NCBI GenBank assembly: GCA_902778935.1
Contig: CACYZT010000002.1
Coordinates: 186,001 to 250,000, forward strand
Reading direction: 5' to 3'
Source of the DNA: an uncultured Bacteroidales bacterium
GTDB taxonomy: Bacteria; Bacteroidota; Bacteroidia; Bacteroidales; Paludibacteraceae
DNA length: 64,000 bases
How positions within the stretch are numbered: the first letter of the stretch is position 1; each line of letters opens with the position of its first letter. This document shows positions 3,368 through 50,468 of this stretch, one piece after another. The translations under genes were made by a program, and so were the position numbers. The notes beneath the pieces were generated by a model that was given only the letters and a program-made list of their open reading frames with translations, ran no database searches and had not been told where the DNA came from.

Positions 3368-4111
3368 TTAAAATCTATAACTAAATCCTGCTCTACACGT
3401 TGCGCCGTAGAACGTAGCGTCCAAATGAAACATGCCTGTCGGTTTGCATTGTGCCCAGAAATTGAGTCTCCAATGGTCTGTCACATCATACCAAGCGCCG
3501 GCAGAGAAAAGCGGTTGCCACATTCGCTCTATCTGGTAGTCATCCACATTGCTGAACATGAACGAGAGATTCCAGAAGTTATTCTGCGGACGGACGAACA
3601 CTTCTATGCGGTAAAGGAGGTTAAACGGCTCCACCACATAGTTGCCTTGCTGGTGCCAAGTCAAATCATAGTCATCTATGACACGCGTGAACGAGCCAAG
3701 CGTGATAGACACATAATCCATTCGATAGCCCACGCCGATAGCCGCATTGATGTCTCCTATTCGGTTGCGCGCCACCACGCGGTAACGAAGGTCGGTCTCA
3801 ATGAACATCTCACCTATGGGCAGTTGGAATTTCGGTCTCAACTGCACGGTACCCGAATAGACATTGGCTGTAGATAACTGCAGTTTCGCCTCCATCTCAA
3901 AGTGCTGATTGATAGGCATCAAAGCCTGGATGTCAAAATTGCCGTGGTGGCCCCATGTGGTGTTATAGCTATATTCAGCCGCTCCACCGATGGAATAGCG
4001 GCGATCGCCAAATCCGGGGCGGGAACCATCCGGCGCACTTTCGCGGGCGCCGGCGTAGAGCCACAAGCCGCACAGGCATAGCATCAAAATTATAAATAAT
4101 CGCTTCACCAT
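3368..4111 (-). CDS. Outer-membrane beta-barrel-like protein
   Basis: The 247-residue protein has a signal peptide (VKRLFIILMLCLCGLWLYAGA) followed by alternating amphipathic strands and a C-terminal aromatic residue (GFSYRF), as in outer-membrane barrels. It is not assigned to a named family. It lies 10 bases downstream of mutS2 and directly upstream of the phosphoesterase on the same strand, suggesting one transcript. A role in the outer membrane is inferred from topology only. Confidence 0.6.
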   Translation of the reverse strand: MVKRLFIILMLCLCGLWLYAGARESAPDGSRPGFGDRRYSIGGAAEYSYNTTWGHHGNFDIQALMPINQHFEMEAKLQLSTANVYSGTVQLRPKFQLPIGEMFIETDLRYRVVARNRIGDINAAIGVGYRMDYVSITLGSFTRVIDDYDLTWHQQGNYVVEPFNLLYRIEVFVRPQNNFWNLSFMFSNVDDYQIERMWQPLFSAGAWYDVTDHWRLNFWAQCKPTGMFHLDATFYGATCRAGFSYRF

Positions 4112-4121
4112 ATCTTGTTTG

Positions 4122-6491
4122 TTATAGTTTCACTATGGTCAGACCGGCTCCTCCATGATTGACATCTCCGTCTCCGAACTCGAGTGCGACGAGTCCACGT
4201 TTACGGCGCTGGCGGTTGAGGTCGTTTAGATAATCGCGTGTCAACTGTTTGAGTGCGCCTGTTCCGGTGCCATGCAGAATAGTCACTTCGCCGGCGCCTA
4301 CCATCTGCGCATCGTCGAGATATGCTATCAGTGCTTCCGTCGCTTCGTCCACACGCATTCCCCGAAGGTCGAGTGTCCGCTCAAATTGCACCGTTCTACG
4401 GTGCACGACCGTTGCACTGACAGACCGCTTCGCTGACAGACCGTTAGCACTGACAGACCGCTCACTCTCGTTCGCTGAAAGATTTTTGAGAACCCGCAAA
4501 TCGCGGAAGTCACGAATGACTTTGGGTATAGCCGGTGCAGAGGGAGTGCTTGGAGTGTTGGCGGTTTTCTTGTTTTTGGGACGCGCAGGAGTGGCTACTT
4601 TCTCTTTCATCTGCTCCACTTTCTGCCTTGCAGCTTTCGTTTTCTCTTTCTCAGCCTTGGCTTCTTTGATTTCGCGGATGGTTCGTTCGATGGTGGCATT
4701 GGCTTCATGCAGCAGGTCTTCGGCTTGTTGCCGCGCTTGCTCGAGTATCTCTTTCTTCTGCGCTTTCACGCCCGCCATTCGTTCGTCATAATCGGCGATA
4801 CGCGCTTCCAGTTCTTTCTCTTTCTGGCGAATCGATTGTCTTTTTTTCTCCCAATACCGCTTGTCGCGGGCTATGTCCTGGAGCTGACGGTCGTAATCGA
4901 TATGCTCCTCGCCTACCAGGTCCGTCGCATAAGCGATGATTGGTTCGCCCAGTCCTGTCTGTCGGGCTATCTCGATGGCAAACGAACTGCCGGCTTGTCC
5001 TATTGACAGCTGGAAGAGCGGTCGCATCGCACCTCGGTCGTAGAGCATCGCTCCGTTGACCACTCCTTTGGTCTCTTCAGCAAAGTGCTTGAGGTTGGTG
5101 TAATGGGTTGTGATGACGCCGAACACATGCCGTTCCACCAGTTCGCGCAGGATAGCCTCGGCTATCGCGCCGCCGATGAGCGGTTCGGTACCTGTGCCCA
5201 TCTCATCGATGAGGATGAGGGTATGGTCATCTGCGTCACGCAGGAAAGCACGCATGTTGCGCAGGTGTGACGAATAGGTCGAAAGCTCATCCTGTATCGA
5301 CTGCTCGTCGCCTATGTCTATCATCAGCCGCGTGAACAGACCTGCCCTACTCTGCTCCGCCACGGGCACTAACAACCCGCATTGGAGCATGTATTGGAGA
5401 AGCGCCACGGTCTTGAGACAAACGGATTTACCGCCGGCATTGGGACCGCTGATGACGAGCATCCGGTTCTCAGATGCCTGCAGGCGAATGGACAGCGGCA
5501 CGACGGTCTTGCCTTGCGGCGTATAGTGCAACCAAAGCACGGGATGACGCGCGTCACACCAGTCCAACAACGGTTCGTTCAGCAGTTCCAGACGAATAGC
5601 ATGAAGCGTCTCGGCAAGTGACACTTTAGCACTTAGAAAATCCACTTCCGCCAAGAGCGACTGACTGCTCATGATAAGTTCAGTCTGCGGACGTAACTGG
5701 TCTGTGATAGCTTGCAGGATTCGTATCCGTTCACGCCGCTCGGCTCCTTCCAGTTCGCGGATATGATTGTTAGCATCGACCACCTGTTGCGGTTCTATAT
5801 AAACGGTTTTGCCGGTGGCTGACTCGTCATGCACGATGCCGCCTATTTTGCGTTTGAAAGCCGGCGAAACGGGTATCACGAGTCGTCCTTCACGGATAGT
5901 AGGAGCTGCATCTGCGTCCACGAAACCGTCCGTTTTGGCTTGGCGCAAGATAGACGCCAATGTCCGTCCGACGCTTCCCTGCAGGTTGGCTATCTCACGA
6001 CGGATACGCGCCAACTCCGGCGAGGCATGGTCTGCGAGTTTGCCGTAACGGTCGAGAATGGCATCTATCGCTTTGACGATAGTTGCCAGACCGCTAACGC
6101 TGTTAGACCGCTGCGCTGACAGATTTTTTAAGAGCGCATAGCGCTGGTCGTCGAGTGCGGCGAAGAAAGTCTCAAGTTCCGCAGCAAAAGAGAGGGATTT
6201 GCGGAGGTCGTCCAGTTCGGCTTCGTCCAGGAACAGACCTTCTATCCGGATACGCGCCACAGCTTCGCGGACATCAAAGATGTCACCTCTTGGAAACGTA
6301 AGCATGGGGTCTGCTTGGGCTTGACGCATCTGGTCGGTAAGCAGCAAGAGATGTTGCACGGTCTCAAAATCCGTTTCCATCTGCATGGAGTCCACCCGTT
6401 CACGGCCCAACGGCGAGGTGCAACGACGATTCAATTCCTCGCGTATAACCGTGAAGTCAATCTTCTGCTCTATGTTATTCGGATAAAACAA
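4122..6491 (-). CDS. mutS2: DNA mismatch repair-type ATPase/Smr nuclease MutS2
   Basis: MutS2 acts on branched DNA and, in some bacteria, on collided ribosomes. Visible in order: a MutS-type core, Walker A (GPNAGGKS, about residue 350), Walker B (LILIDEMGTG), a long basic coiled coil (about 535-630) and a C-terminal Smr domain (LDLRGMRVDEA, LHGTGTG). I place the start at TTG 6491 because 'FYPNNIEQKIDF' matches the usual MutS2 N-terminus; the in-frame TTG at 6536 would translate family F repeats. Two family A repeats lie in frame, in the clamp region (6087-6127) and in the linker before Smr (4388-4481). They encode LSAQRSNSVSG and RSVSANGLSAKRSVSA, which I do not expect in homologs. Confidence 0.92.
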   Translation of the reverse strand: MFYPNNIEQKIDFTVIREELNRRCTSPLGRERVDSMQMETDFETVQHLLLLTDQMRQAQADPMLTFPRGDIFDVREAVARIRIEGLFLDEAELDDLRKSLSFAAELETFFAALDDQRYALLKNLSAQRSNSVSGLATIVKAIDAILDRYGKLADHASPELARIRREIANLQGSVGRTLASILRQAKTDGFVDADAAPTIREGRLVIPVSPAFKRKIGGIVHDESATGKTVYIEPQQVVDANNHIRELEGAERRERIRILQAITDQLRPQTELIMSSQSLLAEVDFLSAKVSLAETLHAIRLELLNEPLLDWCDARHPVLWLHYTPQGKTVVPLSIRLQASENRMLVISGPNAGGKSVCLKTVALLQYMLQCGLLVPVAEQSRAGLFTRLMIDIGDEQSIQDELSTYSSHLRNMRAFLRDADDHTLILIDEMGTGTEPLIGGAIAEAILRELVERHVFGVITTHYTNLKHFAEETKGVVNGAMLYDRGAMRPLFQLSIGQAGSSFAIEIARQTGLGEPIIAYATDLVGEEHIDYDRQLQDIARDKRYWEKKRQSIRQKEKELEARIADYDERMAGVKAQKKEILEQARQQAEDLLHEANATIERTIREIKEAKAEKEKTKAARQKVEQMKEKVATPARPKNKKTANTPSTPSAPAIPKVIRDFRDLRVLKNLSANESERSVSANGLSAKRSVSATVVHRRTVQFERTLDLRGMRVDEATEALIAYLDDAQMVGAGEVTILHGTGTGALKQLTRDYLNDLNRQRRKRGLVALEFGDGDVNHGGAGLTIVKL
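4388..4481 (-). repeat. Family A repeat block in mutS2 linker
   Basis: CTGACAGACCG (reverse: CGGTCTGTCAG) occurs three times here with spacers of 5-14 bases, read in frame as RSVS units. The block begins with a perfect hairpin with a three-base loop, GCACCGT-TCT-ACGGTGC (4388-4404). Confidence 0.8.
6087..6127 (-). repeat. Family A repeat in mutS2 core
   Basis: CAGACCGCT...TTAGACCGCT...CTGACAG words in the coding sequence, read as LSAQRSNSVSG. This is the second family A insertion in the same gene. Confidence 0.7.
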
Positions 6492-6494
6492 ATA

Positions 6495-6530
6495 TATTGA
6501 GGATTTGAGGATTTGAAGATTTGAAGATTT
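6495..6530. repeat. Family F tandem words before mutS2
   Basis: Repeated GATTTGAGG/GATTTGAAG words fill the gap between the DUF721 gene and mutS2. The same words occur at 10852-10880 upstream of a barrel gene, so they are spacer rather than mutS2 coding sequence. Confidence 0.7.
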
Positions 6531-6804
6531 AACCAAGGATGCGACAGTCTCTGATGACTTGTGCGCCGACGGCTTCGTTGAGTTTGCGGACCAGTTCGAA
6601 GCGGTTCTCGAAGAGTTGTGTCTTGAGCGCAGCGGAGCTCACTTTGACATAAAGCATACCGTTTTTGACTTCCACGCTACGCGTGAGTTTGGCAACGGTC
6701 TCGCCCATCACACTTGGCCAGATCTCCTCCATCTGCACTTCGAGCACCTGCTGTTCCAAGCCGGTCTCACGCAGAAAACCCACTATGGCTTCCGTCAAAT
6801 CCAC
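6529..6804 (-). CDS. DUF721 (DciA-like) protein
   Basis: A 91-residue protein with the DUF721 pattern: an N-terminal helix (AIVGFLRETGLEQQVLE), then 'WPSVMGETVAKLTRSVEVKNGMLYV' split by the usual 'SSAALKTQLF' helix. The family is related to DciA, which helps load the replicative helicase; whether this short form does so is unknown. It starts with GTG immediately after the stop codon of the upstream glucosaminidase gene, so the two are translationally coupled. Confidence 0.8.
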   Translation of the reverse strand: MDLTEAIVGFLRETGLEQQVLEVQMEEIWPSVMGETVAKLTRSVEVKNGMLYVKVSSAALKTQLFENRFELVRKLNEAVGAQVIRDCRILG

Positions 6805-8125: not shown

Positions 8126-9505
8126 TTAATAATCGTATATTTTTGACTCGTGTCCTAAAAGGGTGTACGTTTTATTGCCGCGGAGGATTAGGATTTGGCC
8201 GTTGTGGAGGATTTTGAGGGCTTTGGTGTTGGCGTTGGGTTCGTCAATTCCCATTTCGGGTTGGACACCTTCGCCCCATTGGGAATAGAGCCAGTTGATA
8301 CGCCAGTCGTAACGGCGGAAGAAACGGTCGCGGACATCGGAATAATTACTATTATCGCGGTAATTGGATGTGTTGCGCCATTGGTCTGCGTCACGCTTGG
8401 CAGCTTGTTCTATACGGTCGGCATAGTCACGGAGATGCGCTCTGACGGAGTCTTTCCGGCCGTGGTAGAAGAGCCACCATTGTTCCTGAACGCGTTGCTG
8501 AAAAACAGGCCATGAAGCCAACTGTTCTATCCAATATTGCTGCCATGTAGGATTGACGTAAATCCAGTTCTCCTGGTGACGGTTATAGGCATTGCCGAAG
8601 TCCCATACCGGTCCGAATTTCCACTTGTCGGCTATGCCCAAACTATCGCGGTCCTTGTAGAGGAAACAGCTGCCGTGGTAACTCTCGCAATCCTCCATGA
8701 TTTCCTGGACGAGGTAGTACTTAGCTGCTTCGTTCATGTCCATCAGTTGCTCGATATGGTCCGAAGTCGATTCGTACAAAGCACTATTGAGCGTGAGCAT
8801 TTGTTCCTCTAGATAGCTGCGCTGCGGGTTTGTGAGCACTTCCGGCTCTTTGAGCGACACCATGACATACTGGCCGTTCCCTTCGTGAAAAGAGATATTA
8901 TTCTCCGTGTGATAGTTATCTATCTCCACGAGCCAACCGCCGGTTATCGAATCGGGCTGTGTCTCTCCCTCTACTTGCTCGTGTATATGCACCCGATGGG
9001 ACGCTATGCGCACATGTTCCGTTAGGAAATACAATCCCATGTACTGCCCGTTGAGCACCAGTTCGACCGGTTGGTGGCGGGGTGTCCAACGCAGTCCGAT
9101 GGCTTCGCTGAGCATGAATCCGGCGGGCATCTTGAGAAAACCAAGGTCATCGTCCGCACAAGCCATCAGACACCAATGGCGGTTGTTGGGCATCCCCAGC
9201 ACTTTATGCTTCACGTTGAATTTGAGCTTGTACGGTTTTTTGTCAAAACCGGACCAAGTCCAGTTGCCTCGCCCTTTGACAGTGGCATCTATCGGCTGCT
9301 GTGCCGAACCGAGCGAGCGGAACTGCGGGCTCAGGGAGTCGATATAAACGGTAGCGGGTATCTGCGTCTCGGTGTCGTTGATGCTCCGGCTGTTCTGCGT
9401 ATTCACATATACAACAGGCAGCGTTCCTGTCGGCGTTGCGGCGCTTATGGAGATGCTCGTCAACGACCAAAGCACACATCCTATCCATGCAATCATTCTT
9501 TTCAT
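8126..9505 (-). CDS. Secreted CotH-family kinase-like protein with C-terminal tail
   Basis: The 459-residue protein has a signal peptide (RMIAWIGCVLWSLTSISISA) and CotH features: VKGRGNWTW, KKPYKLKF, GLYFLTEHVR and a late PVWDFGNAYN motif. CotH of Bacillus is a protein kinase of spore coat proteins; Bacteroidales homologs are secreted and mostly uncharacterised. The end (NGQILILRGNKTYTLLG) is the short Bacteroidales secreted-protein tail, suggesting surface delivery. The gene is divergent from the small HTH-like gene at 9713 and has its own promoter at 9541-9572. Confidence 0.85.
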   Translation of the reverse strand: MKRMIAWIGCVLWSLTSISISAATPTGTLPVVYVNTQNSRSINDTETQIPATVYIDSLSPQFRSLGSAQQPIDATVKGRGNWTWSGFDKKPYKLKFNVKHKVLGMPNNRHWCLMACADDDLGFLKMPAGFMLSEAIGLRWTPRHQPVELVLNGQYMGLYFLTEHVRIASHRVHIHEQVEGETQPDSITGGWLVEIDNYHTENNISFHEGNGQYVMVSLKEPEVLTNPQRSYLEEQMLTLNSALYESTSDHIEQLMDMNEAAKYYLVQEIMEDCESYHGSCFLYKDRDSLGIADKWKFGPVWDFGNAYNRHQENWIYVNPTWQQYWIEQLASWPVFQQRVQEQWWLFYHGRKDSVRAHLRDYADRIEQAAKRDADQWRNTSNYRDNSNYSDVRDRFFRRYDWRINWLYSQWGEGVQPEMGIDEPNANTKALKILHNGQILILRGNKTYTLLGHESKIYDY

Positions 9506-13735: not shown

Positions 13736-14068
13736 ATGGATTACAAGAATTCTAAAGCACCCAAGAACACCGTTACCCGCGACATCAACCAGTTGACCGA
13801 GCCGGTAGGTAACGTGTATGAAACAGTAGCCATCATCGCCAAACGCGCCAATCAGATTAGCGTAGGTATCAAGCGTGAGTTAGACGCCAAACTGCAGGAT
13901 TTCTCTATTCCTCAGGACAACCTCGAAGAGACCTTCGAGAACCGCGAGCAGATTGAGATCAGCCGCCAGTACGAGCGTCTGCCGAAACCGACTCTGATGG
14001 CTACCCAGGAATTCATCGACGGCGAACTCGTTTACCGCTCCGGTAACCGCGACGAAGCGCTTAAATAG
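13736..14068 (+). CDS. rpoZ: RNA polymerase omega subunit, Bacteroidetes type
   Basis: The 110-residue protein matches the Bacteroidetes omega subunit: MDYKNSKAPKNTVTRD, 'GNVYETVAIIAKRANQIS', 'FENREQIEISRQYERLPKPT'. Omega helps assemble and stabilise the polymerase. It sits upstream of coaBC, a common Bacteroidetes neighbour, but here 120 bases of repeat-rich sequence separate the two. Confidence 0.88.
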   Translation: MDYKNSKAPKNTVTRDINQLTEPVGNVYETVAIIAKRANQISVGIKRELDAKLQDFSIPQDNLEETFENREQIEISRQYERLPKPTLMATQEFIDGELVYRSGNRDEALK

Positions 14069-14190
14069 ATCGCTTCGCTAAAAGAATAAAGACTAAATAC
14101 CATCGGTAGAACATAGCTCAACTACTTAACAATACATTTTAGTCTTTAGTCCTTACTCCTTCAGTGAGTGAAACGAACGATCCTTACTCC
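14066..14190. repeat. Intergenic family A/composite repeat between rpoZ and coaBC
   Basis: Starts at the rpoZ stop with GATCGCTTCGCTAAAAG, continues AAAGACTAAAT and returns as ATTTTAGTCTTTAGTCCTT (inverted), then carries CCTTACTCC twice. It resembles the repeat that encodes the lipoprotein signal peptides at 33980 and 40448. Confidence 0.65.
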
Positions 14191-23664: not shown

Positions 23665-24515
23665 CTCCTTTGCAGTTCGATATACCGGCCGTCATTCGCC
23701 AGAAGGCACCCAAAGCCCATGTGCCGGCGTTCATCATACGCTATCTGGAGCGCATCACGCACGTGAAGCAGATGAACTCTTTTCTGCGCAAGTATCCGAG
23801 CTTGCACGGCTACGAGTTCATCGAGCGCGCGATAAGCGAGGAGTTAGGATGCTCGGCGTCTATCGACGGCACGGAGCATATCCCGACGGACGGCAAGCCT
23901 GTTATCTTCGTCTCCAATCATCCGCTGGGAGGATTGGATGGCATGATCATCGCCCAAATGATTCACGAAACGCGACAATCGTCCAATCGACAATCGTCCA
24001 ATCGTCCATTAAAAGTGATTGTCAACGACCTGCTGATGTACATGGAGCCGATTAACGAGTTATGGGCACCTGTGAATAAATCCGGCAAACTGAGTAAAGA
24101 GCAAGCTATTGAGCAGCAGAAGATGTGGGAATCCGGGACAGATGTGCTCACGTTCCCTGCCGGTAGTTGCAGCCGCCTGCAGCGGATTGACGGCAAATGG
24201 CGGATACAGGACCTCGAATGGCAGAAGAACTTTGTGCAACGCGCCAGAGAGTACCAACGCGACATTGTGCCCATTTATTTCGAAGGGCGCAACAGCAATT
24301 TCTTCTATGCCTTGGCATACCTGCGCAAATTGCTGCACATCAAACTCAATATCGAGAGGCTCTACCTGGTTGATGAGATGTACGGCGCATATGGCAAGCA
24401 CTTCAAAGTGCACGTGATGCCGCCTATTCCATATACGATGTTTGACAGCAGCCGTACGCCCAAACAATGGGCACAATATGTAAAAGAACTAATATACAGT
24501 TACCCGAATAAATGA
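23661..24515 (+). CDS. glsA: PlsC-like O-acyltransferase, probable GlsA
   Basis: The 284-residue protein is a lysophospholipid-acyltransferase-like enzyme with an unusual first motif (SNHPLGGLDG, H-x5-D) and TFPAGSCSRL as the later acid motif. Next to a GNAT-type partner it fits the glsB/glsA pair that makes N-acyl-O-acyl glycine lipids in Bacteroides; GlsA adds the O-acyl chain. The assignment is by family and context. A family B repeat (23974-24010) inserts RQSSNRQSSNR in frame before LKVIVND. It overlaps both neighbours by four bases. Confidence 0.75.
   Translation: MTPLQFDIPAVIRQKAPKAHVPAFIIRYLERITHVKQMNSFLRKYPSLHGYEFIERAISEELGCSASIDGTEHIPTDGKPVIFVSNHPLGGLDGMIIAQMIHETRQSSNRQSSNRPLKVIVNDLLMYMEPINELWAPVNKSGKLSKEQAIEQQKMWESGTDVLTFPAGSCSRLQRIDGKWRIQDLEWQKNFVQRAREYQRDIVPIYFEGRNSNFFYALAYLRKLLHIKLNIERLYLVDEMYGAYGKHFKVHVMPPIPYTMFDSSRTPKQWAQYVKELIYSYPNK
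23974..24010 (+). repeat. Family B repeat inside the acyltransferase gene
   Basis: GACAATCGTCCAATCG appears twice in tandem, then ATCGTCCATT, read in frame as RQSSNRQSSNRP. Confidence 0.8.
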
Positions 24516-25456
24516 AAGAAATTATTCCCCCTGTTGAAACTGCCCTGTTGATGAAGGAGTTAGAAGGGCATTTACTGCGTCCGTCCAATAAGGCGGACAA
24601 TCTCATCTATGACATCACCGCCCATGAGTGCCCGAATGTCATGCGAGAGATAGCGCGTTTGCGTGAAATCAGTTATCGTGACGCAGGCGGGGCGACAGGA
24701 CAAGAGATGGATATGGATGATATGGACCTGATGGCTAAACCGTACCACCAACTTATTGTCTGGGACCCGACGAACCAGCAGATTATCGGAGGCTACCGAT
24801 ATCTCTTGGGACGGGATATAGAGATACGGAACGGGCAGCCATATATCACTTCCTCATTCCTATTCCACTATTCTGAACGGTATATCCGGGATTATCTTCC
24901 AAATACCATTGAATTCGGACGCGCATTCGTGCAGCCCATGTATCAGAAACGCGAGATGGGCGTGAAGGCGCTCTTCGCATTGGATAATATATGGGATGGT
25001 ATCGGAGCAGTTATGCACAACAATCCTGCCATCAGGTGGATGATCGGCAAAGTAACCATCTATCCCGATTACAACGAGACTGCGCGAGAGTTGATTTACA
25101 CTTATCTCCATCGTTACCATAAAGGCGAAGAAGGGCTTATAGCGCCGTACAAACCTATTGAGATTCGTCCGCTGGAGGTGGACCCGTTCAACGGCACAAA
25201 CTCGCAGGAAAACTACCATATCCTGCAGCACGCCGTGCGAGAGCAAGGAACGGTCATTCCGCCTATGTTCTCTGCGTATCTGAACATCACAAACGACTTG
25301 CAGTATTTCGGTACAACTATAGAAGAAACATTCTCCAATGTGTATGACTCAGGAATCATGGTAGATTTGGAAACTGTCTATCAGGAGAAAAAAGAACGTT
25401 ATATCACCCCTTATATCCAATGGCTCGAAGCCAACGCCAATGCCAATAGCAAATAA
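24512..25456 (+). CDS. glsB: GNAT-type N-acyltransferase, probable GlsB
   Basis: The 314-residue protein belongs to the hemolysin/OlsB-like GNAT group: 'IARLREISYRDAGGATGQEMD', KPYHQLIVWDP, GGYRYLLG, 'NTIEFGRAFVQPMYQ'. In Bacteroides GlsB attaches a 3-hydroxy fatty acyl chain to glycine and GlsA completes the lipid. Placement directly after the PlsC-like gene with an ATGA overlap supports this role. The C-terminus (EANANANSK) is encoded by GCCAATG/GCCAACG words and overlaps the next gene by 17 bases. Confidence 0.78.
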   Translation: MKEIIPPVETALLMKELEGHLLRPSNKADNLIYDITAHECPNVMREIARLREISYRDAGGATGQEMDMDDMDLMAKPYHQLIVWDPTNQQIIGGYRYLLGRDIEIRNGQPYITSSFLFHYSERYIRDYLPNTIEFGRAFVQPMYQKREMGVKALFALDNIWDGIGAVMHNNPAIRWMIGKVTIYPDYNETARELIYTYLHRYHKGEEGLIAPYKPIEIRPLEVDPFNGTNSQENYHILQHAVREQGTVIPPMFSAYLNITNDLQYFGTTIEETFSNVYDSGIMVDLETVYQEKKERYITPYIQWLEANANANSK

Positions 25457-26819
25457 TATAAAAGAAGTACGCGCGCATATCCCCGCGGGTGTGACGCTCG
25501 TATGCGTAAGCAAATATCATCCTGTCGAAGCCATACGCGAAGCATACGAAGCCGGCGAACGCCATTTCGGCGAGAGCCGTGTGCAGGAACTCAAAACCAA
25601 AGTGAACCAACTGCCGACGGACATCCATTGGCACTTCATCGGACATCTGCAGACCAACAAAGTGCGCGACTTGCTCAAACTGCGGCCGTACCTCATCCAG
25701 TCCGTGGACTCCGAGCATCTGCTGCAAACCATTAATGACGAAGCCGCCAAGTTGGGCATTGTTCAAGATATCCTGCTCGAGGTGCATGTGGCTCGCGAGG
25801 AGTCCAAGATAGGTTTCTCGCCGGACGAGTTAGCTGCTCTCCGTACGCAGCTATCCAATAACCCATACCCGCACGTCCGCATCATGGGTTTGATGGCCAT
25901 GGCAACCAATACCGATGATGAGACAGAGATTCGTCGCTGTTTTACGGAGGCAGCCAACAGCCAAAAGCTAATAGCCAACAGCCTTCCGTCAAAGACGGTC
26001 CTTTCCATGGGCATGAGCGATGACTACCGACTCGCCATCGAGTGCGGTTCCACCATGGTCCGCATCGGCTCCTATATCTTCGGTGAGAGATCTGTCAGTC
26101 CGAAGGACGGTCTGTCAGCAACGCGGCCTGTCAGCAAAACGGTCTGTCAGGCCGAAGACCGGTCCATCAAAGCGGTCTTCTTCGACCAGGACGGTGTGCT
26201 CTATAACTCGATGCCTTACCATGCCGAGTCCTGGGCATGGGCGATGACCAAACACGGACTACCCTACACCGCAATGGAGTGTTATCGCAACGAAGGACGG
26301 ACCAGCACAGGCGTCATCCAGGAGTACCATCAGCGTATATTCGGCACGCCGGCTTCGGAAGAGCTGATTGAAGACATCTATAAGGACAAGACCGCACATT
26401 TCAACGAGATGACGGGTGGTTTCCCGGGTATCATCCCCGATGTGGACAAAGTGCTGCAATTCCTTCGTTCTCAGGGTATTGAGTGCTGGGTGGTGACGGG
26501 TTCCGGTCAGCATAACCTGATAGACGCGCTCAATGACATCTTCAACCATGCCTTCACGGGTATCATCTCTTCGTTCGATGTGACGCACGGCAAGCCGGAT
26601 CCCGAACCTTATCTCAAAGCGTGGGAGCGCTCGGGGTTCAAGAAAGAAGAGTGCATGGTGGTGGAGAACGCACCCTTGGGTGTACGTGCCGCCAAGGCTG
26701 CTGGGCTGTACTGCTGCGCCGTCAACACGGGTATCCTACCCGACTCCGAACTATGGGACGAACATGCCGACCAGGTCTTCCATTCCATGGCCGAACTGCT
26801 CCATTGGTTGAAGAACTAA
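25440..26819 (+). CDS. YggS-type PLP protein fused to a HAD phosphatase
   Basis: Residues 1-215 are a YggS/PROSC PLP-homeostasis protein: VCVSKYHPVEAI with the PLP lysine, FGESRVQELKTK, HFIGHLQTNKV, LSMGMSDDYRLAIECGSTMVRIG. Residues 240-459 are a HAD subfamily I phosphatase like beta-phosphoglucomutase: VFFDQDGVLYNS, a Thr-Gly-Ser motif, HGKPDPEPY and VENAPLGVRAAKAAG. The junction is a family A repeat (ERSVSPKDGLSATRPVSK...), and a family D repeat lies inside the YggS half. I know of no standard fusion of these families, so repeat-mediated fusion is likely. One protein or two activities are both possible. Confidence 0.85.
   Translation: MPIANNIKEVRAHIPAGVTLVCVSKYHPVEAIREAYEAGERHFGESRVQELKTKVNQLPTDIHWHFIGHLQTNKVRDLLKLRPYLIQSVDSEHLLQTINDEAAKLGIVQDILLEVHVAREESKIGFSPDELAALRTQLSNNPYPHVRIMGLMAMATNTDDETEIRRCFTEAANSQKLIANSLPSKTVLSMGMSDDYRLAIECGSTMVRIGSYIFGERSVSPKDGLSATRPVSKTVCQAEDRSIKAVFFDQDGVLYNSMPYHAESWAWAMTKHGLPYTAMECYRNEGRTSTGVIQEYHQRIFGTPASEELIEDIYKDKTAHFNEMTGGFPGIIPDVDKVLQFLRSQGIECWVVTGSGQHNLIDALNDIFNHAFTGIISSFDVTHGKPDPEPYLKAWERSGFKKEECMVVENAPLGVRAAKAAGLYCCAVNTGILPDSELWDEHADQVFHSMAELLHWLKN
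25952..25983 (+). repeat. Family D words inside the YggS domain
   Basis: AGCCAACAGCCAAAAGCTAATAGCCAACAGCC-type words (given in part) encode ANSQKLIANS. The 18-mer AGCTAATAGCCAACAGCC also occurs, inverted, after nadC (38772-38802). Confidence 0.75.
26089..26165 (+). repeat. Family A repeat at the YggS-HAD junction
   Basis: Four GGTCTGTCAG-like words with spacers, including a perfect hairpin GTCC-GAA-GGAC (26098-26108). The whole block is open and forms the linker of the fusion protein. Confidence 0.85.
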
Positions 26820-29106: not shown

Positions 29107-29432
29107 CAGAAAATTTAGGAAAGAGGATTGTGCCGTGAAGGTGTTTGCGGCGGAAGAATAGGTTATGAGAAGGGTGACAAAGGGAGAAGCAACCTTTGAG
29201 CACCCTTTCATCATCCTTTGAGCACCCTTTGGGACCTGCTGGAGAGAAGGTGGAAAAGAGGCAGAGAGTACGCAGACAAGAGGCGGAGAGTACGCAGACA
29301 AGAGGCGGAGAGTACGCAGACAAGAGGCGGAGAGAACGCGGAAAAGAGGCGGAGAGTACGGAGACAAGAGGCGGAGAGTACGGGGACAAGAGGCGGAGAG
29401 AAGGTGGAAAAGAGGCGGAGAGTACGGGGACG
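29107..29432 (+). ncRNA. VNTR element copy 1: promoter-driven transcript with 22 bp tandem repeats
   Basis: Downstream of its own promoter lies a leader with AGCACCCTTT words (CCTTTGAGCACCCTTT twice, 29191-29232), then eight 22 bp tandem units at 29257-29432 (consensus AGAGGCGGAGAGTACGCAGACA) preceded by most of one more. Unit length is not a multiple of three and all frames stay open, so reading frames here are weak evidence. A TTG-started frame (MSTLSSSFEHPLGPAGE..., 29196-29438) is shared with copy 2, so a small protein cannot be excluded. I favour a structured RNA or mobile spacer. Confidence 0.6.
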
Positions 29433-32771: not shown

Positions 32772-32804
32772 ATTAGACCGCTGCGCTCAAAGAGAAAAGA
32801 GTTT
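32770..32804. repeat. Family A fragment after the DUF4292 gene
   Basis: TTAGACCGCTGCGCTCAAAG near the stop codon, the same words as after nusB (16813). Confidence 0.55.
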
Positions 32805-33981: not shown

Positions 33982-34562
33982 AGACCGCTACGCTAAAAGA
34001 GCAAAGACCGCTCACTACGTTCGCTAAAAGAACAGAGACTAAATGGATTCGACCGATAGTATTTGGTCTTTTGTCCTTATTCCTTATTCCTTTGTCCTCT
34101 TGTAAGCAAAACAAATGGGCGGAGTGGAAAATCCAAAATGAACTTTGGTTGGAGAACAACAAGAGTCGGGAAGGCGTGAAGATATCGAGCAGCGGTTTGC
34201 AGTATAAGATTATTGCCGACCCCTTAGCCGATTACGGCGAGGCAAGACCAAACTTAACGGGCACCATCGTTTGCGACTACACCGCCAAACTGATTAACGG
34301 TTACCAGGTGGATGCCGGTAATGACGTTACGTTGTCACTGGCGAGCACGATTGCCGGCTTTGCGGAAGGATGTCATAAGATTCACAGTCAGGGAGATATC
34401 GAACTGTACGTCCCCGCTTATTTGGGTTACGACAAGACGAAGTACGATTCGAATGATTATTCCACCGCCGAAGGTGCGGGTACCGAAGGAACTCAATCGT
34501 ATATTCCACCCTACTCAACCCTCATTTACAACATTCATATATGCGCCATCGTATCCAACTAA
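33966..34562 (+). CDS. FKBP-type peptidyl-prolyl isomerase lipoprotein
   Basis: The 198-residue protein ends in an FKBP-like domain: SSGLQYKIIADP, 'GTIVCDYTAKLINGYQVDAG', 'IPPYSTLIYNIHICAI'. Some active-site residues appear changed. The N-terminus is unusual: 47 residues, of which MDSTIKTATLKEQRPLTTF and the hydrophobic 'IRPIVFGLLSLFLIPLSSC' are encoded by a family A/composite repeat (33980-34095). The repeat therefore supplies the lipoprotein signal. It overlaps both neighbours. Confidence 0.75.
   Translation: MDSTIKTATLKEQRPLTTFAKRTETKWIRPIVFGLLSLFLIPLSSCKQNKWAEWKIQNELWLENNKSREGVKISSSGLQYKIIADPLADYGEARPNLTGTIVCDYTAKLINGYQVDAGNDVTLSLASTIAGFAEGCHKIHSQGDIELYVPAYLGYDKTKYDSNDYSTAEGAGTEGTQSYIPPYSTLIYNIHICAIVSN
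33980..34095 (+). repeat. Family A/composite repeat encoding a lipoprotein signal
   Basis: AAGACCGCTACGCTAAAAGAG words, then GACTAAATGGATTCGAC and GGTCTTTTGTCCTTATTCC. The same order occurs at 40448 (coding) and at 14066 (non-coding). Confidence 0.8.
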
Positions 34563-35445: not shown

Positions 35446-36011
35446 GTAAGAAACTGACGACCGCTGAGATGGGACGCATGAGTGTGGACCAATACCGCGA
35501 AGCGGACAAACTGCCGCTGGTCGTGGTGCTGGATAATGTGCGCAGTCAGCATAACGTAGGTGCAGTCTTCCGTACGGCTGACGCCATGCGTATCGAGCGC
35601 GTGGTGCTCTGCGGTATCTGTTGCTGTCCGCCTAACCAGGAGATTCACAAGACCGCTCTTGGTGCCGAAGAGAGCGTTGAATGGGCGTATTACAAAGAGA
35701 CCACCGATGCTGTGCGGACATTACAGGAAGAGGGTTACACGGTCTATGCCGTAGAACAGGCGCACGACTCCCTCACCCTCGAAGAGATAGCGGAACAAAT
35801 CGTAAATCGCAAATCGTCAAATCGTAAACTGGCTGTTGTATTGGGCCATGAGGTGTTCGGCGTACAACAAGAAGTAATCGACATCTGTCAAGGATGCATA
35901 GAAATACCTCAATACGGAACGAAGCACTCAATGAACGTGTCTGTCACGGCAGGCATTGTGATGTACCGGATTTCTCAAACACTGCGTGCCGTTAAAACGT
36001 TAAAGTGTTAA
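35442..36011 (+). CDS. TrmH/SpoU-family RNA methyltransferase
   Basis: The 189-residue SPOUT methyltransferase shows motif 1 (LDNVRSQHNVGAVFRTADA), motif 2 (VLGHEVFGVQQEV) and motif 3 (IPQYGTKHSMNVSVTAGI). The target RNA cannot be told. A family B repeat (35797-35829) encodes QIVNRKSSNRK just before motif 2. The last residues (AVKTLKC) and the stop come from family C GTTAAA words. Confidence 0.88.
   Translation: MSKKLTTAEMGRMSVDQYREADKLPLVVVLDNVRSQHNVGAVFRTADAMRIERVVLCGICCCPPNQEIHKTALGAEESVEWAYYKETTDAVRTLQEEGYTVYAVEQAHDSLTLEEIAEQIVNRKSSNRKLAVVLGHEVFGVQQEVIDICQGCIEIPQYGTKHSMNVSVTAGIVMYRISQTLRAVKTLKC
35797..35829 (+). repeat. Family B repeat inside the methyltransferase gene
   Basis: AAATCGTAAATCGCAAATCG words in frame, encoding IVNRKSSNRK. 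The same peptide is found in the aminopeptidase at 61091. Confidence 0.8.
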
Positions 36012-36043: not shown

Positions 36044-37537
36044 ATGCTCTCATTACTAAGTCCTGCGAAAGATAAAGAAGTAGCCAAGGCGGCTATACAA
36101 GCCGGCGCAGATGCCGTGTATATCGGTGCGCCAGCGTACGGTGCTCGCCAAGCGGCAGGAAACAGTATGGAGGACATAGCGGAAGTAGTGCGCTATGCAC
36201 ATGTGTACGGCGTGAAAGTGCTGGTAACGGTTAACACCTTGCTGCATGACAACGAGTATGCCGACGCTGTGGATATGATACACAAGCTCTATGAGATAGG
36301 CGTGGACGCGCTTATTATTCAAGATCTGCATTTATTGGATTTTGACTTACCGCCTATCGCGCTGCATGCTTCCACGCAATGCGACAATCGCACGCCGGAA
36401 CATGTAACTAAACTGCGTGATATGGGTTTTCGACGCGTTGTGCTGGCTCGCGAACTGAGTATTGACGAGATACGCGCTATCCACAAAGCCGTACCGGATA
36501 TTGAGCTCGAAGCGTTCGTACACGGAGCGTTGTGCGTCAGCTATTCGGGGCGGTGCTACATCAGCGAAGTGCTCTCCGGACGAAGTGCCAACCGCGGAGC
36601 GTGTGCGCAGTACTGCCGCATGGCGTATGACCTGCTGGATGCGAACATGAACGAGGTGGTCGATGAGCGAGGAGTGCCTATTCATCAGCGCCATCTGCTG
36701 TCGCTTCAGGATATGGACCGGAGTGCGTATCTGCAGGAACTGATTGATGCGGGCGTAACGACTTTTAAGATAGAAGGACGCCTCAAAGACGCAGACTACG
36801 TAACGAATATCACGGCATATTACAGAGAGAAATTAGACCGCTGCGCTGAAAGACGAAAGACCGCTTTGCTCAAAGATGAAAGACCGATTTACGACCGCAG
36901 TTTTATCCCTAATCCGGAGAAGACATTCCACCGCGGTGCGACAGATTATTTCCTGCACGGCCGCACCCGTCCGATGGCTAACTGGGACACCCCAAAATCA
37001 ACGGGCGAGTATATCGGTGAAGTGCTGGAAGCACGCGGTAACACGCTTCGCGTGCGACTCAAAGAGGGTGTGGTGCTGCATAATGGTGACGGACTGACTA
37101 TCGGTGCAGAAGGATGTAACGTCAACGGAGTAGAGAGTAATCTTGTGAAGATTAACAAAGAGCTTTCGGTTTCCCGATATACCGATATACCGTTATACCG
37201 TAATTTCGATGTCGAGTTCGTCAAATCGCTGCATAGCGAGCGGCGCATACCGGTGGATATTGTTTTTCGCGAGACCGAAGAGGGGTTTGAACTAATCTAT
37301 CAACCAGCCAACGGCCAATGCCAACGCCAATGTCGTTTTGACTATGTCAAAGAGCCGGCAAAAAACGAAGCCAAAGCCATGGAGACTATCCGTACGCAGT
37401 TAACTAAATTAGGTGATACGCCGTTTATAGCACGGGAAGTAACGATAGAGAGCAAGCCGTATTTTATACCAATTAGCATTTTGAACGAATGGAGACGAAG
37501 TGTTTTGAACACAGAGCACAGACCGGACGGCCTTTAA
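36044..37537 (+). CDS. U32-family peptidase-like protein (RlhA-type), main part
   Basis: From ATG 36044 the 497-residue protein shows LLSPAKDKEVAKAAIQAGAD, the U32 signature 'EAFVHGALCVSYSGRCYISE' and SANRGACAQYCR, with cysteines likely to bind an iron-sulfur cluster. Relatives such as RlhA hydroxylate rRNA. A family A repeat inserts LDRCAERRKTALLKDERP (36834-36895). The usual Cys-rich C-terminal segment is missing from this frame and found in the next one, starting at the stop codon (TAATG). Confidence 0.85.
   Translation: MLSLLSPAKDKEVAKAAIQAGADAVYIGAPAYGARQAAGNSMEDIAEVVRYAHVYGVKVLVTVNTLLHDNEYADAVDMIHKLYEIGVDALIIQDLHLLDFDLPPIALHASTQCDNRTPEHVTKLRDMGFRRVVLARELSIDEIRAIHKAVPDIELEAFVHGALCVSYSGRCYISEVLSGRSANRGACAQYCRMAYDLLDANMNEVVDERGVPIHQRHLLSLQDMDRSAYLQELIDAGVTTFKIEGRLKDADYVTNITAYYREKLDRCAERRKTALLKDERPIYDRSFIPNPEKTFHRGATDYFLHGRTRPMANWDTPKSTGEYIGEVLEARGNTLRVRLKEGVVLHNGDGLTIGAEGCNVNGVESNLVKINKELSVSRYTDIPLYRNFDVEFVKSLHSERRIPVDIVFRETEEGFELIYQPANGQCQRQCRFDYVKEPAKNEAKAMETIRTQLTKLGDTPFIAREVTIESKPYFIPISILNEWRRSVLNTEHRPDGL
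36834..36895 (+). repeat. Family A words inside the U32 gene
   Basis: TTAGACCGCTGCGCTGAAAG and AAAGACCGCTTTGCTCAAAG in frame, encoding a basic loop. Confidence 0.7.
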
Positions 37538-40439: not shown

Positions 40440-41852
40440 ATGGACCACTTCGTTAAAAGACAAAAGACCGCTATGCTAAAAGTAGAAAGACCTATATGGA
40501 TTCGACTAATCATTTTAGTCATTCTACCATTGACCTTATTCCTTTGTCCTTCCTGTCAGTTCCATGACGATAAGTTTGTCGATTTCACGGATATAGAGGC
40601 AGCTAAGGGTTTGAAATTCAAGGTCATCGGCCAGCACGAGACCGACCTAAACAATGGTTTCCCGTCTAACTGCTATCTGCCTGACGGCACGCCGGTGAAC
40701 GAATATGTAGATGAGCCGGTTGGATACGATGCGCAGGGAGACGAAGCAGGAAGCGGTCCGCTGCGAACAACCAGCGTAACGGGTGCATCTATCCTGCAGG
40801 AACTCATCAAATACAAGAACCAGACCCGCGTGACAGAAATAGTAGGTACCTACCCCAGCATCAATGGAAACCGAGATACCATACAACTGTCCGGCAAGGT
40901 CATCTTGCCTACGGGCCGCAAACCCAAAAGGATGATTTTGGTCAGCCACTACACAGTTGGCTCCAACCGCGAGGCTCCGAGTAACTGCTTCTCACTCGAA
41001 GGAGTGTTGGCGGAACTGGGTTACGGACTTATTCTGCCGGATTATATCGGTTACGGCGTGACGGTAAACGAGGTTCACCCTTATCTGGTAATGGACTTGA
41101 CGGCTCATAACGTGGTGGATATGTACCTTGCCGTTCGTCCATGGCTCAAGGCTATCGATATGGAACCCGAGCAACCGGGAATTATCCTAATGGGTTATAG
41201 CCAAGGCGGGGCTAACACGATGGCCGTTCAGCACCTCATCGAGACCGAGTATGACTACTACGGCAACCCCGAGCGTATCTTTCTCCATCGTGTGTTTGCC
41301 GGCGGCGGTCCATACGACGTCAAGGCCACGTACGAACGCTTCGTAACGACCGACACAGCCGGTTATCCCGTTGCCGTACCACTCGTTCTGCAAGGAATGA
41401 TCAAAGGCAACAACCTCAATATGCAGATGTCCGATATGATGCAGCAATGGTTGTGCGACAAGATGGACGACTGGATTAACAGCAAACTATACTGCACGAA
41501 CCAACTCAACAAATTCATCGGCACGAAAGTGACGCACGAACTGCTGACTCAGGAAGCCATGGACCAGACATCCGATAAAGTAGCGGAGCTGTACAAGGCG
41601 ATGAATGCCAACTCCATCATCTCCTATAACTGGATGCCGTCCGCCCCCGTCTATCTGATGCACTCGATGGACGACGAGACGGTACCGTACGCCAACGCTG
41701 CCAACGCGAAAAACAAATGGCAATATGCCAATATCAGGTATAACTTCGGGCACTACGGCGGTCATGTGCTGACCTGTCTGCGCTTTATCGCCGCCGTTCG
41801 AGAATTACTTCTCCAGGAGGAGAAAGAAAAGGAGGAATATGAAGCTCAATAA
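40440..41852 (+). CDS. Alpha/beta-hydrolase lipoprotein
   Basis: The 470-residue protein has the lipase-type nucleophile elbow GYSQGG (about residue 258), a likely acid in MDDETVP and a likely His in GHYGGHV. Substrate unknown; a secreted esterase or peptidase is plausible. The signal (IRLIILVILPLTLFLCPSC) and the preceding basic stretch are encoded by the same composite repeat as in the FKBP gene. It overlaps the next gene by 14 bases. Confidence 0.82.
   Translation: MDHFVKRQKTAMLKVERPIWIRLIILVILPLTLFLCPSCQFHDDKFVDFTDIEAAKGLKFKVIGQHETDLNNGFPSNCYLPDGTPVNEYVDEPVGYDAQGDEAGSGPLRTTSVTGASILQELIKYKNQTRVTEIVGTYPSINGNRDTIQLSGKVILPTGRKPKRMILVSHYTVGSNREAPSNCFSLEGVLAELGYGLILPDYIGYGVTVNEVHPYLVMDLTAHNVVDMYLAVRPWLKAIDMEPEQPGIILMGYSQGGANTMAVQHLIETEYDYYGNPERIFLHRVFAGGGPYDVKATYERFVTTDTAGYPVAVPLVLQGMIKGNNLNMQMSDMMQQWLCDKMDDWINSKLYCTNQLNKFIGTKVTHELLTQEAMDQTSDKVAELYKAMNANSIISYNWMPSAPVYLMHSMDDETVPYANAANAKNKWQYANIRYNFGHYGGHVLTCLRFIAAVRELLLQEEKEKEEYEAQ
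40448..40553 (+). repeat. Family A/composite repeat encoding a second lipoprotein signal
   Basis: AAAGACCGCTATGCTAAAAG, then GACCTATATGGATTCGACTA and ACCTTATTCCTTTGTCC, matching 33980-34095 in order and strand. Confidence 0.8.
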
Positions 41853-46101: not shown

Positions 46102-47031
46102 ATGTGGATAGTTTTAGCGTTCATATCGGCGATTTGTCTGGGGTTTTATGATGTCTCCAAGAAGATAGCGTTGCGCGATAACAAGGTGGTAGATGTGCTG
46201 ATGTTGAGTACCTGTATCTCATCGCTCATTCTCGCTGTTCCGTTGGTCCTGTCGCGCATACATCCGGAGTGGATGCTGGGTACGCCATTCTATGTACCGC
46301 GTCTCGACCTGACCGCACATCTGTACACGCTTCTCAAATCGGTTATCGTCCTCAGCAGTTGGGTGTTCGCTTATATATCGCTCAAGCATCTTCCTATCTC
46401 GGTGGTCAGTCCCGTTCAGGCCACACGACCGATGTGGACACTCATCGGAGCGATGCTCATCTTCGGCGAACGGCTTAACACATGGCAGTGGATAGGTGTA
46501 GTGCTGGCTATCGGCACGATCTTTGTCTTCTCTTTCGGCGCTACGAAAAAAGTACGCCATACCACGCTTTTTCACGAACATAAGTACTACTATATCTGCT
46601 TGGCACTCGCTATACTCATCGGTGCCGCTTCGGGACTATACGACAAATACCTCATGCGCCGGTACGACCACAACGCCGTGCAGGTCTATTACACGTTCTA
46701 TCAAGCGATTATGATGCTCATTGTTTGGGGGATAGACAGGATACATAATCGGTCTGTCAGCGAAGCGGTCTGTGCTCTGTTAGCGAAGCGGTCTGTATTC
46801 CCGATACTAATGATAAGCCTATTTCTCATTGTATCGGATAACGTCTATATGCTCGCCTTGCAAGACCCCGATTCGATGATTGCCGTGGTTAGTACCATCC
46901 GTCGCGGCGGCACGGTAATAGGCTTTGCCTACGGCTTACTGTACCTCAAGGAACACGACCCTTGGCGCAAAATCATCTGCATGATAGGTATTCTCGCCGG
47001 CCTTATCTGCCTCGCTTTCGGCTCAATCTGA
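46102..47031 (+). CDS. EamA/DMT-family transporter
   Basis: The 309-residue inner-membrane protein has about ten hydrophobic helices in two EamA halves, with PVQATRPMWTLIGAMLIFGE and 'TIRRGGTVIGFAYGLLYLKE' as conserved ends. The substrate is unknown. A family A repeat (46749-46797) encodes NRSVSEAVCALLAKRSV in the loop before helix 8, a hydrophilic stretch that need not disturb the fold. Confidence 0.85.
   Translation: MWIVLAFISAICLGFYDVSKKIALRDNKVVDVLMLSTCISSLILAVPLVLSRIHPEWMLGTPFYVPRLDLTAHLYTLLKSVIVLSSWVFAYISLKHLPISVVSPVQATRPMWTLIGAMLIFGERLNTWQWIGVVLAIGTIFVFSFGATKKVRHTTLFHEHKYYYICLALAILIGAASGLYDKYLMRRYDHNAVQVYYTFYQAIMMLIVWGIDRIHNRSVSEAVCALLAKRSVFPILMISLFLIVSDNVYMLALQDPDSMIAVVSTIRRGGTVIGFAYGLLYLKEHDPWRKIICMIGILAGLICLAFGSI
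46749..46797 (+). repeat. Family A repeat inside the EamA gene
   Basis: CGGTCTGTCAGCGAAGCGGT, then CTGTTAGCGAAGCGGTCTG; read in frame as RSVS...AKRSV. Confidence 0.8.
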
Positions 47032-49154: not shown

Positions 49155-50468
49155 ATGATATCGCCGTTTATATTACCGCCAAGTCCGGAGGCGCAGGAAG
49201 CAGCCTTGGATATAATAAGAAAGGTACACGCGTACATGCGTGCGCATCCCGAATCGGAACTTCACCGGTGCGGAAAGATGTTCGGTGTGCTGGTATGCGA
49301 CGGCGAAGGAGCGATGACTAACGGCAAACGGTATTTAGCGGCATTCTCGGCACAGCTGGACGGTTCGTATCACCATGAAGGCTTTGTGCCGCCGGTTTAT
49401 GAGATGCAGCAAGCTCCGGTAGGCGCCAACAAAGCCGAGTCACAACGGCTGCAACGCTTGCTCTTCTCTAACTATCGTTTGACAAACGGGCAAGGCGAGA
49501 CGAAGAACCTATTGGATATCTTCGCCGCAGAGAGCCCCATCATTCCGCCGGAAGAGTGGTTCGCGAGTCGCCATCAACCGAAAGAACGGAGTCAGACACA
49601 CCCTCTTCCTCCTTCGGGTGCAGGCGAGTGCTGCGCGCCCAAACTGCTGCAATATGCCTTCACACACGGTCTGAAACCGATAGCGATGGCTGAGTTCTGG
49701 GTGGGCGCGCCGTCCAAGACGGAGATTCGGCATGAAGGGGTGTTCTACGCTCCGTGCTCAGGCAAATGTGTACCCATCTTACGACATATGCTCAAGGGAT
49801 TGGACGATTGGACGATTGACGATTGGACGATTAGAGAATTTCCGAAACCGGAAACGCTCTACGAGGACGAATGGCTGATAGTCATCAACAAGCCTTCGGG
49901 TCTTCTGTCCGTACCCGGAAAAGGCGGTGAACCTTCGGCGGAAAGTCTATTGCGAGCCAAAGCCGCTCACCGTCTTGACCAAGACACAAGCGGCTTACTC
50001 GTTCTCGCCAAGACGCCGGATGTCTATACGGCACTCCAGGCCTATTTTCAGCGGCGAGACATCCTCAAATGCTATGAAGCATTGGTAAAGCCGAATGATG
50101 CGAATGATGCAAATGATGCGAATGATGGAATGATAGAGCTCCCGCTGTTGCCAAATCCGTACGACCGTCCGCGACAGATGGTGAATACCGAACACGGCAA
50201 AGTCGCCATAACGCGGTACTCTATTCGCGAGAGGTACGCAGACGGTTCGTGGTTCGTGGATTTGTTTCCGCTCACGGGGCGAACCCATCAGTTACGCGTG
50301 CATGCGGCTCACCCGGACGGGCTGAACGCACCTATCATCGGAGACCGGCTCTATGGCGGCGAACAGGCGGAACGGCTGATGCTCCATGCAGCTGAGATTA
50401 GTTTCGTTCACCCCGTAACGAACGAACCGATGCATTTCTCCGAGCCATCCGATTTCCGGCTAAAGTAA
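49155..50468 (+). CDS. RluA-family pseudouridine synthase with extended N-terminus
   Basis: The C-terminal half is an RluA-type catalytic domain: LYEDEWLIVINKPSGLLSVPG, the catalytic Asp in HRLDQDTSGLLVLAK, LTGRTHQLRVH and GDRLYGG. The N-terminal 220 residues (MFGVLVCDGEG, LAAFSAQLDG, FVPPVYEMQ) occur in a subset of RluA-like proteins, with unclear function. The linker (LDDWTIDDWTIREF) is a family B repeat in reverse, and a loop after ALVKP is a run of NDA units (family H). ATG 49155 is set by the promoter, which covers the TTG at 49143. Confidence 0.88.
   Translation: MISPFILPPSPEAQEAALDIIRKVHAYMRAHPESELHRCGKMFGVLVCDGEGAMTNGKRYLAAFSAQLDGSYHHEGFVPPVYEMQQAPVGANKAESQRLQRLLFSNYRLTNGQGETKNLLDIFAAESPIIPPEEWFASRHQPKERSQTHPLPPSGAGECCAPKLLQYAFTHGLKPIAMAEFWVGAPSKTEIRHEGVFYAPCSGKCVPILRHMLKGLDDWTIDDWTIREFPKPETLYEDEWLIVINKPSGLLSVPGKGGEPSAESLLRAKAAHRLDQDTSGLLVLAKTPDVYTALQAYFQRRDILKCYEALVKPNDANDANDANDGMIELPLLPNPYDRPRQMVNTEHGKVAITRYSIRERYADGSWFVDLFPLTGRTHQLRVHAAHPDGLNAPIIGDRLYGGEQAERLMLHAAEISFVHPVTNEPMHFSEPSDFRLK
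49797..49842 (+). repeat. Family B words (reverse orientation) in the RluA gene
   Basis: GATTGGACGATTGGACGATT and GACGATTGGACGATTAG words encode DDWTIDDWTI in the interdomain linker. Confidence 0.75.
50093..50132 (+). repeat. Family H words in the RluA gene
   Basis: AATGATGCG/AATGATGCA nine-base words, four copies, encode NDANDANDAND in a surface loop. Confidence 0.75.

Follow-up and report, generated by a model that had tools for sequence, protein, structure and literature searches.

The variable spacers between the family-A words of this uncultured Bacteroidales genome are covarying mini-hairpins. Each family-A unit has the form TCTNNCA-[hairpin]-GGTC and is repeated head to tail, and its hairpin has a stem of at least 2 bp, mostly with a GNA or GNNA loop. 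The stems stay paired while their letters change, and the arrays occupy intergenic DNA as well as genes; within genes they use both strands and every frame, provided that no stop codon arises. The first-pass annotation had described a conserved word alternating with variable spacers; the lengths do vary, but that the spacers are covarying hairpins was missed.

The source genome comprises 2.18 Mb in 41 contigs and is 90% complete. The DNA read consisted of the window, which is the whole analysed stretch of 64,000 nucleotides, and 40 further stretches, together 723,676 bp, and it covers all 85 exact copies of the family-A word GGTCTGTCAG. Genes were called by our own codon-based procedure without an annotation program, and the placement of arrays rests on these calls. 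Most of the named relatives are MAGs of uncultured Bacteroidales or Paludibacteraceae, and many of their titles point to the rumen or gut of ruminants.

Unit anatomy and copy number

Spacers of 7, 8, 9 and 11 nt were captured by the flanking linker alone, with no structure required and other lengths excluded. After removal of context duplicates the set comprised 238 copies (67 distinct) from the stretches of the source genome and from loci of other genomes in the genus. The full expected stem of 2-4 bp was found in 225 of the 238 spacers, and the loop starts with G and ends with A in 193. The stem variants include GC/GC, GT/AC and AC/GT with 2 bp, GGC/GCC, GCC/GGC, GTC/GAC and GCT/AGC with 3 bp, and GTCC/GGAC, GCCC/GGGC, GGCC/GGCC and GCTC/GAGC with 4 bp. 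Distinct full stems were compared with 2000 re-dealings of the 3' halves. Full stems were found in 18 of 23 distinct 7-nt spacers (re-dealt mean 8.3, maximum 16), in 8 of 9 with 9 nt (mean 2.1, maximum 7) and in 13 of 18 with 11 nt (mean 5.3, maximum 11), while the 8-nt spacers, with 15 of 17, were no better than re-dealing (mean 11.9, maximum 16).

The hairpins are mostly 7-11 nt long, GCGAAGC being the commonest of the 7-nt hairpins (30/109), and the longest classes measure 15-16 nt, with facing GA steps in 7 of 15 such spacers. Many stems have only 2 bp, and the GT/AC and AC/GT stems contain a single G-C pair. Triloops are of the GNA type in 183 of 205 cases in the source genome, where a C-G pair closes 181 of the 205, and in 141 of 177 cases in other genomes, a count that includes certain loci twice. 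The GNNA type makes up 25 of 33 tetraloops in the source genome and 16 of 26 in the others. None of these loop counts are independent because the copies share descent. A purine occupies the third loop place in only 5 of the 41 GNNA tetraloops, which are thus mostly not of the GNRA type. The linker is equally regular: among 142 neighbouring units less than 40 nt apart, 133 have linkers of 9 or 16 nt, and the distance from the end of a hairpin to the next foot is 2 nt (99 cases) or 9 nt (34 cases).

Allowing one mismatch, the word GGTCTGTCAG is found 11 times in the window where 2.9 are expected, and 0 of 100 shuffles attain 11. Genome-wide, the exact word occurs 85 times and its mirror image 3 times; the 85 copies group into 58 arrays. 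Of the 10-mers found 20 times or more in the 724 kb read, GGTCTGTCAG has the highest log-likelihood excess (85 against a third-order expectation of 1.1). A looser grammar of the unit finds 248 units in 108 arrays in the 723,676 bp. The same grammar finds 7 units in the mirror sequence, 6 in one first-order shuffle and a mean of 7.5 (maximum 11) in 20 second-order resamples. Six stretches (105 kb) picked without the exact word held 4 units.

A second hairpin family, ATATAC-(GNA or ANA)-GTATAT, has 10 copies, all intergenic and several within a longer shared repeat (L164:1099, L165:7725, L167:4247, L171:1977, L177:4286, L184:14210, L187:12374, L189:6554, L195:111 and L198:3412).

Placement in and between genes

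The array at 26089-26165 of the window (plus strand) lies in the linker of an ORF (25440-26819, plus strand) that joins what we take to be YggS and HAD domains. As the first-pass annotation had described, the word alternates with spacers here: four copies, two exact and two with one mismatch, are separated by spacers of 6-10 nt and followed by a final hairpin-like spacer. The hairpins are GTCCGAAGGAC and GCAACGC, after which the units are degenerate. The names YggS, HAD, FKBP, U32 and hydrolase for ORFs in the window are presumed, partly after that annotation, while MutS2, EamA and ArgS are backed by Pfam.

The in-frame RSVS words reported earlier are in sense orientation in five places. In addition to the YggS-HAD linker, these are MutS2 (ORF 4122-6491, minus strand), with four hairpin units at 4407-4482 between the MutS_V and Smr domains and two units at 6089-6123 (both minus strand); the EamA-family transporter, with two units at 46751-46793 (plus strand); and ArgS (ORF 52995-54794, minus strand), with a single unit at 53265-53284 (minus strand) in a linker of variable length. 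Aminopeptidase P does not belong in this list: its RSVSG residues are encoded by a different hairpin, CCGGAGTGTCTCCGG (61576-61590, plus strand), which is not family A, while the single family-A unit there (61596-61613, minus strand) is antisense to the gene. The inner 15-mer of CCGGAGTGTCTCCGG recurs once, in another gene (L171:8692). The related words noted in the presumed U32, FKBP and hydrolase ORFs are real copies but all antisense. Two units with TCTTTNA feet lie at 36836-36876 in the U32 ORF, two units at 33983-34031 in the FKBP ORF and one unit at 40443-40460 in the hydrolase ORF (all minus strand), the latter two ORFs carrying them right at the 5' end, where the choice of start codon is uncertain. 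Single units on the minus strand are also found in an intergenic position (32776-32793) and overlapping the end of an ORF (14068-14085; ORF 13736-14068, plus strand).

The window also contains other arrays of 7-8 nt direct repeats, of the AAATCGT, CAATCGTC and GATTGGAC types, at 643-675, 23966-24009, 35797-35833, 49798-49832 and 61091-61127, several of them in ORFs, and a 22-nt tandem array of about eight copies at 29241-29431, near a long intergenic stretch.

The 108 arrays comprise 47 intergenic, 36 sense in genes, 15 antisense in genes and 10 over gene ends. Units in sense begin in frame 0 in 32 cases, in frame 1 in 14 and in frame 2 in 32; the corresponding antisense counts are 0, 8 and 22, and the unused antisense frame 0 would read TGA. 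In the 47 intergenic arrays there are 92 open sense frames against 56 open antisense frames, and the ratio of 36 to 15 in genes fits these counts (p = 0.25), so the sense excess is explained by stop codons that exclude antisense frames. Strand selection at the RNA level was rejected as its cause for the same reason. The use of every frame together with a sense excess that fits stop avoidance argues that the element is DNA and not peptide. The earlier description of a gene-invading, frame-keeping element is therefore not supported, since 47 of the 108 arrays are intergenic and three frames as well as the antisense strand are used.

Arrays are frequently close to gene ends. Among the 43 intergenic arrays with both neighbours, 17 are on the strand of co-directional genes and 20 on the opposite strand, 4 lie between convergent and 2 between divergent genes. 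The locally C-rich strand carries 73 of the 108 arrays (p = 0.0003) and 28 of the 47 intergenic ones (p = 0.24). In this test gene strand may influence the local skew, and arrays from the same stretch are not independent. Five inverted array pairs within 150 nt, all intergenic, surround a core of 29-66 nt. These pairs with their shared core (L193:4118-4330, 5535-5700 and 8220-8400; L189:14313-14428; L178:8349-8502) are possibly the full-length form of the element.

An internal array was found in 40 genes, 28 of which were scanned against Pfam and 25 matched. In antisense, arrays number four in UvrA, where they occupy two regions, and two each in Mfd and a DAHP synthase/chorismate mutase; MutS2, a SpoU methylase and a dihydrouridine synthase have two each. 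Further hosts include DXP synthase, a radical SAM/TRAM protein, glutamate racemase (MurI), dihydrodipicolinate synthase (DapA), an RNB ribonuclease, ArgS and an NRPS. Two array regions each are present in uvrA and mfd (L164:7135-9903 and L165:4224-7628) and in mutS2 (window 4122-6491). These repair-gene hosts recall a report, in the available text of PMC3733652, that REPs in genes are often in repair genes.

Sister species and candidate mechanisms

The YggS-HAD insert is absent from all 16 sister loci that aligned through the linker (15 in one piece and one in two), one of which has stop codons in the linker. Among 59 named sisters the linker is 6 to 75 nt long and carries a family-A word in three (L083, L084 and L086); some of these sisters have the reading frame interrupted between YggS and HAD. 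The linker is filled by different unrelated short repeats across species (L053-L111), such as CCAACGCCAAAG, CCAATCTC, CACCGAT, AATCAAA and AAATGGTAAATGAT. At the other sites the insert is likewise absent from the aligned sisters: 0 of 4 at both MutS2 sites, 0 of 6 for ArgS, 0 of 3 for aminopeptidase P, and 0 of 1 each for U32 and EamA. Homologues with the same residues at the same place, by which the first-pass annotation would have recognised ordinary conserved loops, were thus not seen among the aligned sisters, the distant homologues compared being solved structures only.

That annotation had also placed the insertions in loops or linkers, and length-variable sites are indeed used. However, the gain in length against sisters is only 2 residues at the second MutS2 site and 3-6 residues in ArgS, so in these two cases the repeat has replaced or filled a variable loop and is not a clean insertion. 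Compared with solved structures, MurI counts 29 residues at a place where Aquifex MurI (1b73) has 3, and UvrA 63 against 29 in structure 9gxk; DapA aligned through the array with no clean gap, and at the ArgS array site the loop of yeast ArgRS is of comparable length.

Orthologous stretches include empty and filled sites, for instance 37 nt in the source genome at L167 against about 10 nt in G114 and G128, and some arrays are kept between species. They show whole arrays present or absent between species, with units gained, lost or exchanged. The word pair occurs in 30 of 121 genomes of the genus and in one of 393 genomes drawn across the order, which is the source genome itself, and family A is so far confined to one genus. 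In the 79 named sister loci (1.48 Mb) the loose grammar detects 59 units, which are partly due to chance.

In the available text of PMC4686876, DNA mini-hairpins whose GNA or GNNA loop sits on two or more G-C pairs are described as extraordinarily stable and nuclease-resistant, and GCGAAGC is given as melting at 78 °C and resisting nucleases. The majority of family-A hairpins have such a loop on at least two G-C pairs. This likeness points to a role as single-stranded DNA and suggests that family A may act in that form. Five arrays were folded with nearest-neighbour energies, both as DNA (each strand) and as RNA, and the values were mostly equal to those of shuffles (z -2.9 to +2.2). The 26089 array alone was clearly below its shuffles (z -2.6 and -2.9 for the DNA strands, -1.9 for RNA), and its predicted fold is not a row of mini-hairpins. 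Since the particular stability of GNA loops may be missing from the folding parameters, this result gives no support yet does not decide the matter. A search of Rfam with five array-bearing stretches (83,951 bp) found only two tRNAs at gathering score, and two sub-threshold matches were located in window 4000-6600.

A mover was sought among HUH transposases. PF01797 has no match in the source genome (90% complete) but has matches in 42 of the 121 genus genomes, 34 of them above cut-off. A profile of the larger HUH proteins matches in 86 of 121 among the matches listed, and in the source genome it identifies a 401-aa frame on contig C4 and a divergent 354-aa frame on C15. A family-A array was found in 0 of 50 distinct HUH genes among the matches listed; one HUH gene locus (L242) contains TCTGTCAG twice as a bare word, with neither hairpin nor GGTC. 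The larger HUH gene is present in 27 of 30 word-bearing and 59 of 91 other genomes (p = 0.0098, kinship ignored, among the matches listed), and this co-occurrence is not taken as proof because shared ancestry is uncorrected. In 23 of the 50 distinct HUH genes an exact 13-mer is common to the gene interior and the flank, mostly belonging to a hairpin of their own. These TnpA_REP-like genes of 350-420 aa thus carry their own hairpin repeat in frame inside and beside the gene, with a gene-specific stem; loci of this kind include L214, L217, L218, L236, L238, L249, L261, L262, L263, L269, L272 and L273. Comparison of the flanks of family-A copies revealed no target-site duplication or fixed junction, and in a MITE-type comparison no more than a few intergenic copies shared a core, while inspection by eye showed no termini common to the copies. 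A phage vehicle was rejected: the word pair occurs in three IMG/VR contigs with spacers that are not hairpins of the family-A type, and these were taken as chance.

We infer that family A is mobile. By a judgement slightly better than even, it is a REP-like dispersed single-stranded-DNA element, spread by an HUH-type enzyme in trans and remodelled by slippage. The hairpins would give a compact, nuclease-resistant fold of single-stranded DNA. An enzyme acting on single strands would recognise them and paste the element into new sites, probably at the replication fork; the likeliest candidate is a Y1/HUH transposase that works in trans, as it does for REPs. Identical linkers would permit slipped pairing, by which arrays would grow or shrink, and copies in proteins would survive only where a loop or linker tolerates them, the peptide presumably having no function of its own.

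The most serious competing explanation, which we consider rather unlikely, does without transposition: the arrays would result from slippage, hairpin-guided template switching and occasional gene conversion, with stems that pair because mutation pairs them. Hairpin-guided template switching turns imperfect palindromes perfect. Identical linkers agree with this explanation, as do the gain, loss and exchange of units at orthologous arrays, the several unrelated short repeats that fill the YggS-HAD linker in other species, and the failure to find a mover by PF01797 or in the 50 HUH genes among the matches listed. Slippage alone, however, does not disperse the unit over 58 word-bearing arrays in unrelated places; the loops keep GNA or GNNA, and stems of 2 bp would seem short for template switching. 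The covarying stems and fixed linker might instead mark a selected landmark in the DNA, a site that a chromosomal protein of repair, segregation or uptake binds or processes. The arrays in uvrA, mfd and mutS2 and the slight preference for the locally C-rich strand, which carries 73 of 108 arrays, speak for such a site, but with the word pair in only 30 of 121 genus genomes and no significant strand bias in the intergenic arrays alone it is improbable.

Covariation and the frequent position near gene ends could also be expected of an RNA element whose hairpins are regulatory or processing sites in transcripts. This is very improbable given the balanced strand use of arrays between co-directional genes (17 on the strand of the genes, 20 on the other), the rarity of GNRA loops, RNA folding no better than shuffles in four of five arrays (z -1.9 in the fifth) and the lack of any array match in Rfam at gathering score in the five stretches. 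Scarcely any credence is due to a peptide motif selected in proteins: similar peptides (RSVS, GLSA, VCQ) do recur in unrelated proteins, but one DNA is read in three frames and antisense, on which ground the motif was rejected, and aligned sisters lack these residues.

Within the preferred reading of a mobile single-stranded-DNA element, we advance only tentatively, as a doubtful possibility, that family A represents a class in which stable mini-hairpins are exchangeable beads on a fixed linker, genus-wide, in frame in essential proteins and with no transposase in cis. If true, GNA/GNNA DNA mini-hairpins, known as laboratory and aptamer motifs, would also build an abundant natural repeat and would offer a chromosomal example in which selection on folds of single-stranded DNA can be tested. 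The repeats would also rewrite linkers of housekeeping proteins (UvrA, Mfd, MutS2, MurI, DapA and ArgS), and more than 100 sister genomes serve as natural replicates.

Relation to known systems

Family A looks like a REP- or RPE-like dispersed element with a design that seems new among palindromic repeats. It appears to work like a REP. Rickettsia palindromic elements (RPEs) are larger single palindromes with a sequence other than that of family A, which is built of exchangeable mini-hairpins with a fixed linker. As palindromic repeats in frame in genes of unrelated function (PMC3733652, available text), RPEs agree with family A, which is likewise found in frame in such genes. REPs and BIMEs are also short dispersed hairpins, single or grouped, mostly intergenic and sometimes in frame, and their host genes include uvrA and tRNA synthetase genes (PMC3733652, available text). 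As a short palindromic DNA repeat with many copies genome-wide (248 units in 108 arrays), family A corresponds to them.

Family A is nevertheless not filed as a REP because it lacks the REP tag, size and BIME arrangement. The REP tag GTAG or CGTC at the end of the palindrome is replaced by TCTNNCA and GGTC flanks, the REP palindrome has 20-40 bp against 7-11 nt in most family-A hairpins and 15-16 nt in the longest classes, and the alternating orientation of BIMEs contrasts with head-to-tail units on a quantised linker and five inverted array pairs. In the REP/RAYT system the repeat has a cognate gene, whereas none was found for family A among the 50 HUH genes in the matches listed; CGTC REPs also occur without a dedicated transposase, according to the available text of PMC3733652.

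In subclass 2.4 of TnpA_REP the repeat is found inside the gene as well as beside it (PMC6006769, available text). The genus is rich in HUH genes with their own internal and flanking hairpin, a likeness by description to subclasses 2.4 and 2.6, which have Bacteroidetes among their hosts, but the repeats of these genes differ from family A. Heptamers of the TAACTGA type are dispersed direct repeats, intergenic and in some ORFs, in Beggiatoaceae, cyanobacteria and five Bacteroidetes (PMC4679880, available text). They are plain heptamers without secondary structure, whereas family-A spacers form covarying stems, and the AAATCGT-type arrays of the window are closer to them than family A is.

A literature search gave no paper on the family-A repeat, and no report of GNA/GNNA mini-hairpins as a dispersed genomic repeat, among the matches listed. 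In loop rule and stem rule family A agrees with the d(GCGAAGC)-type mini-hairpins; these are known as laboratory oligonucleotides and as an aptamer tool (PMC4686876, available text), whereas family A is a genomic repeat.
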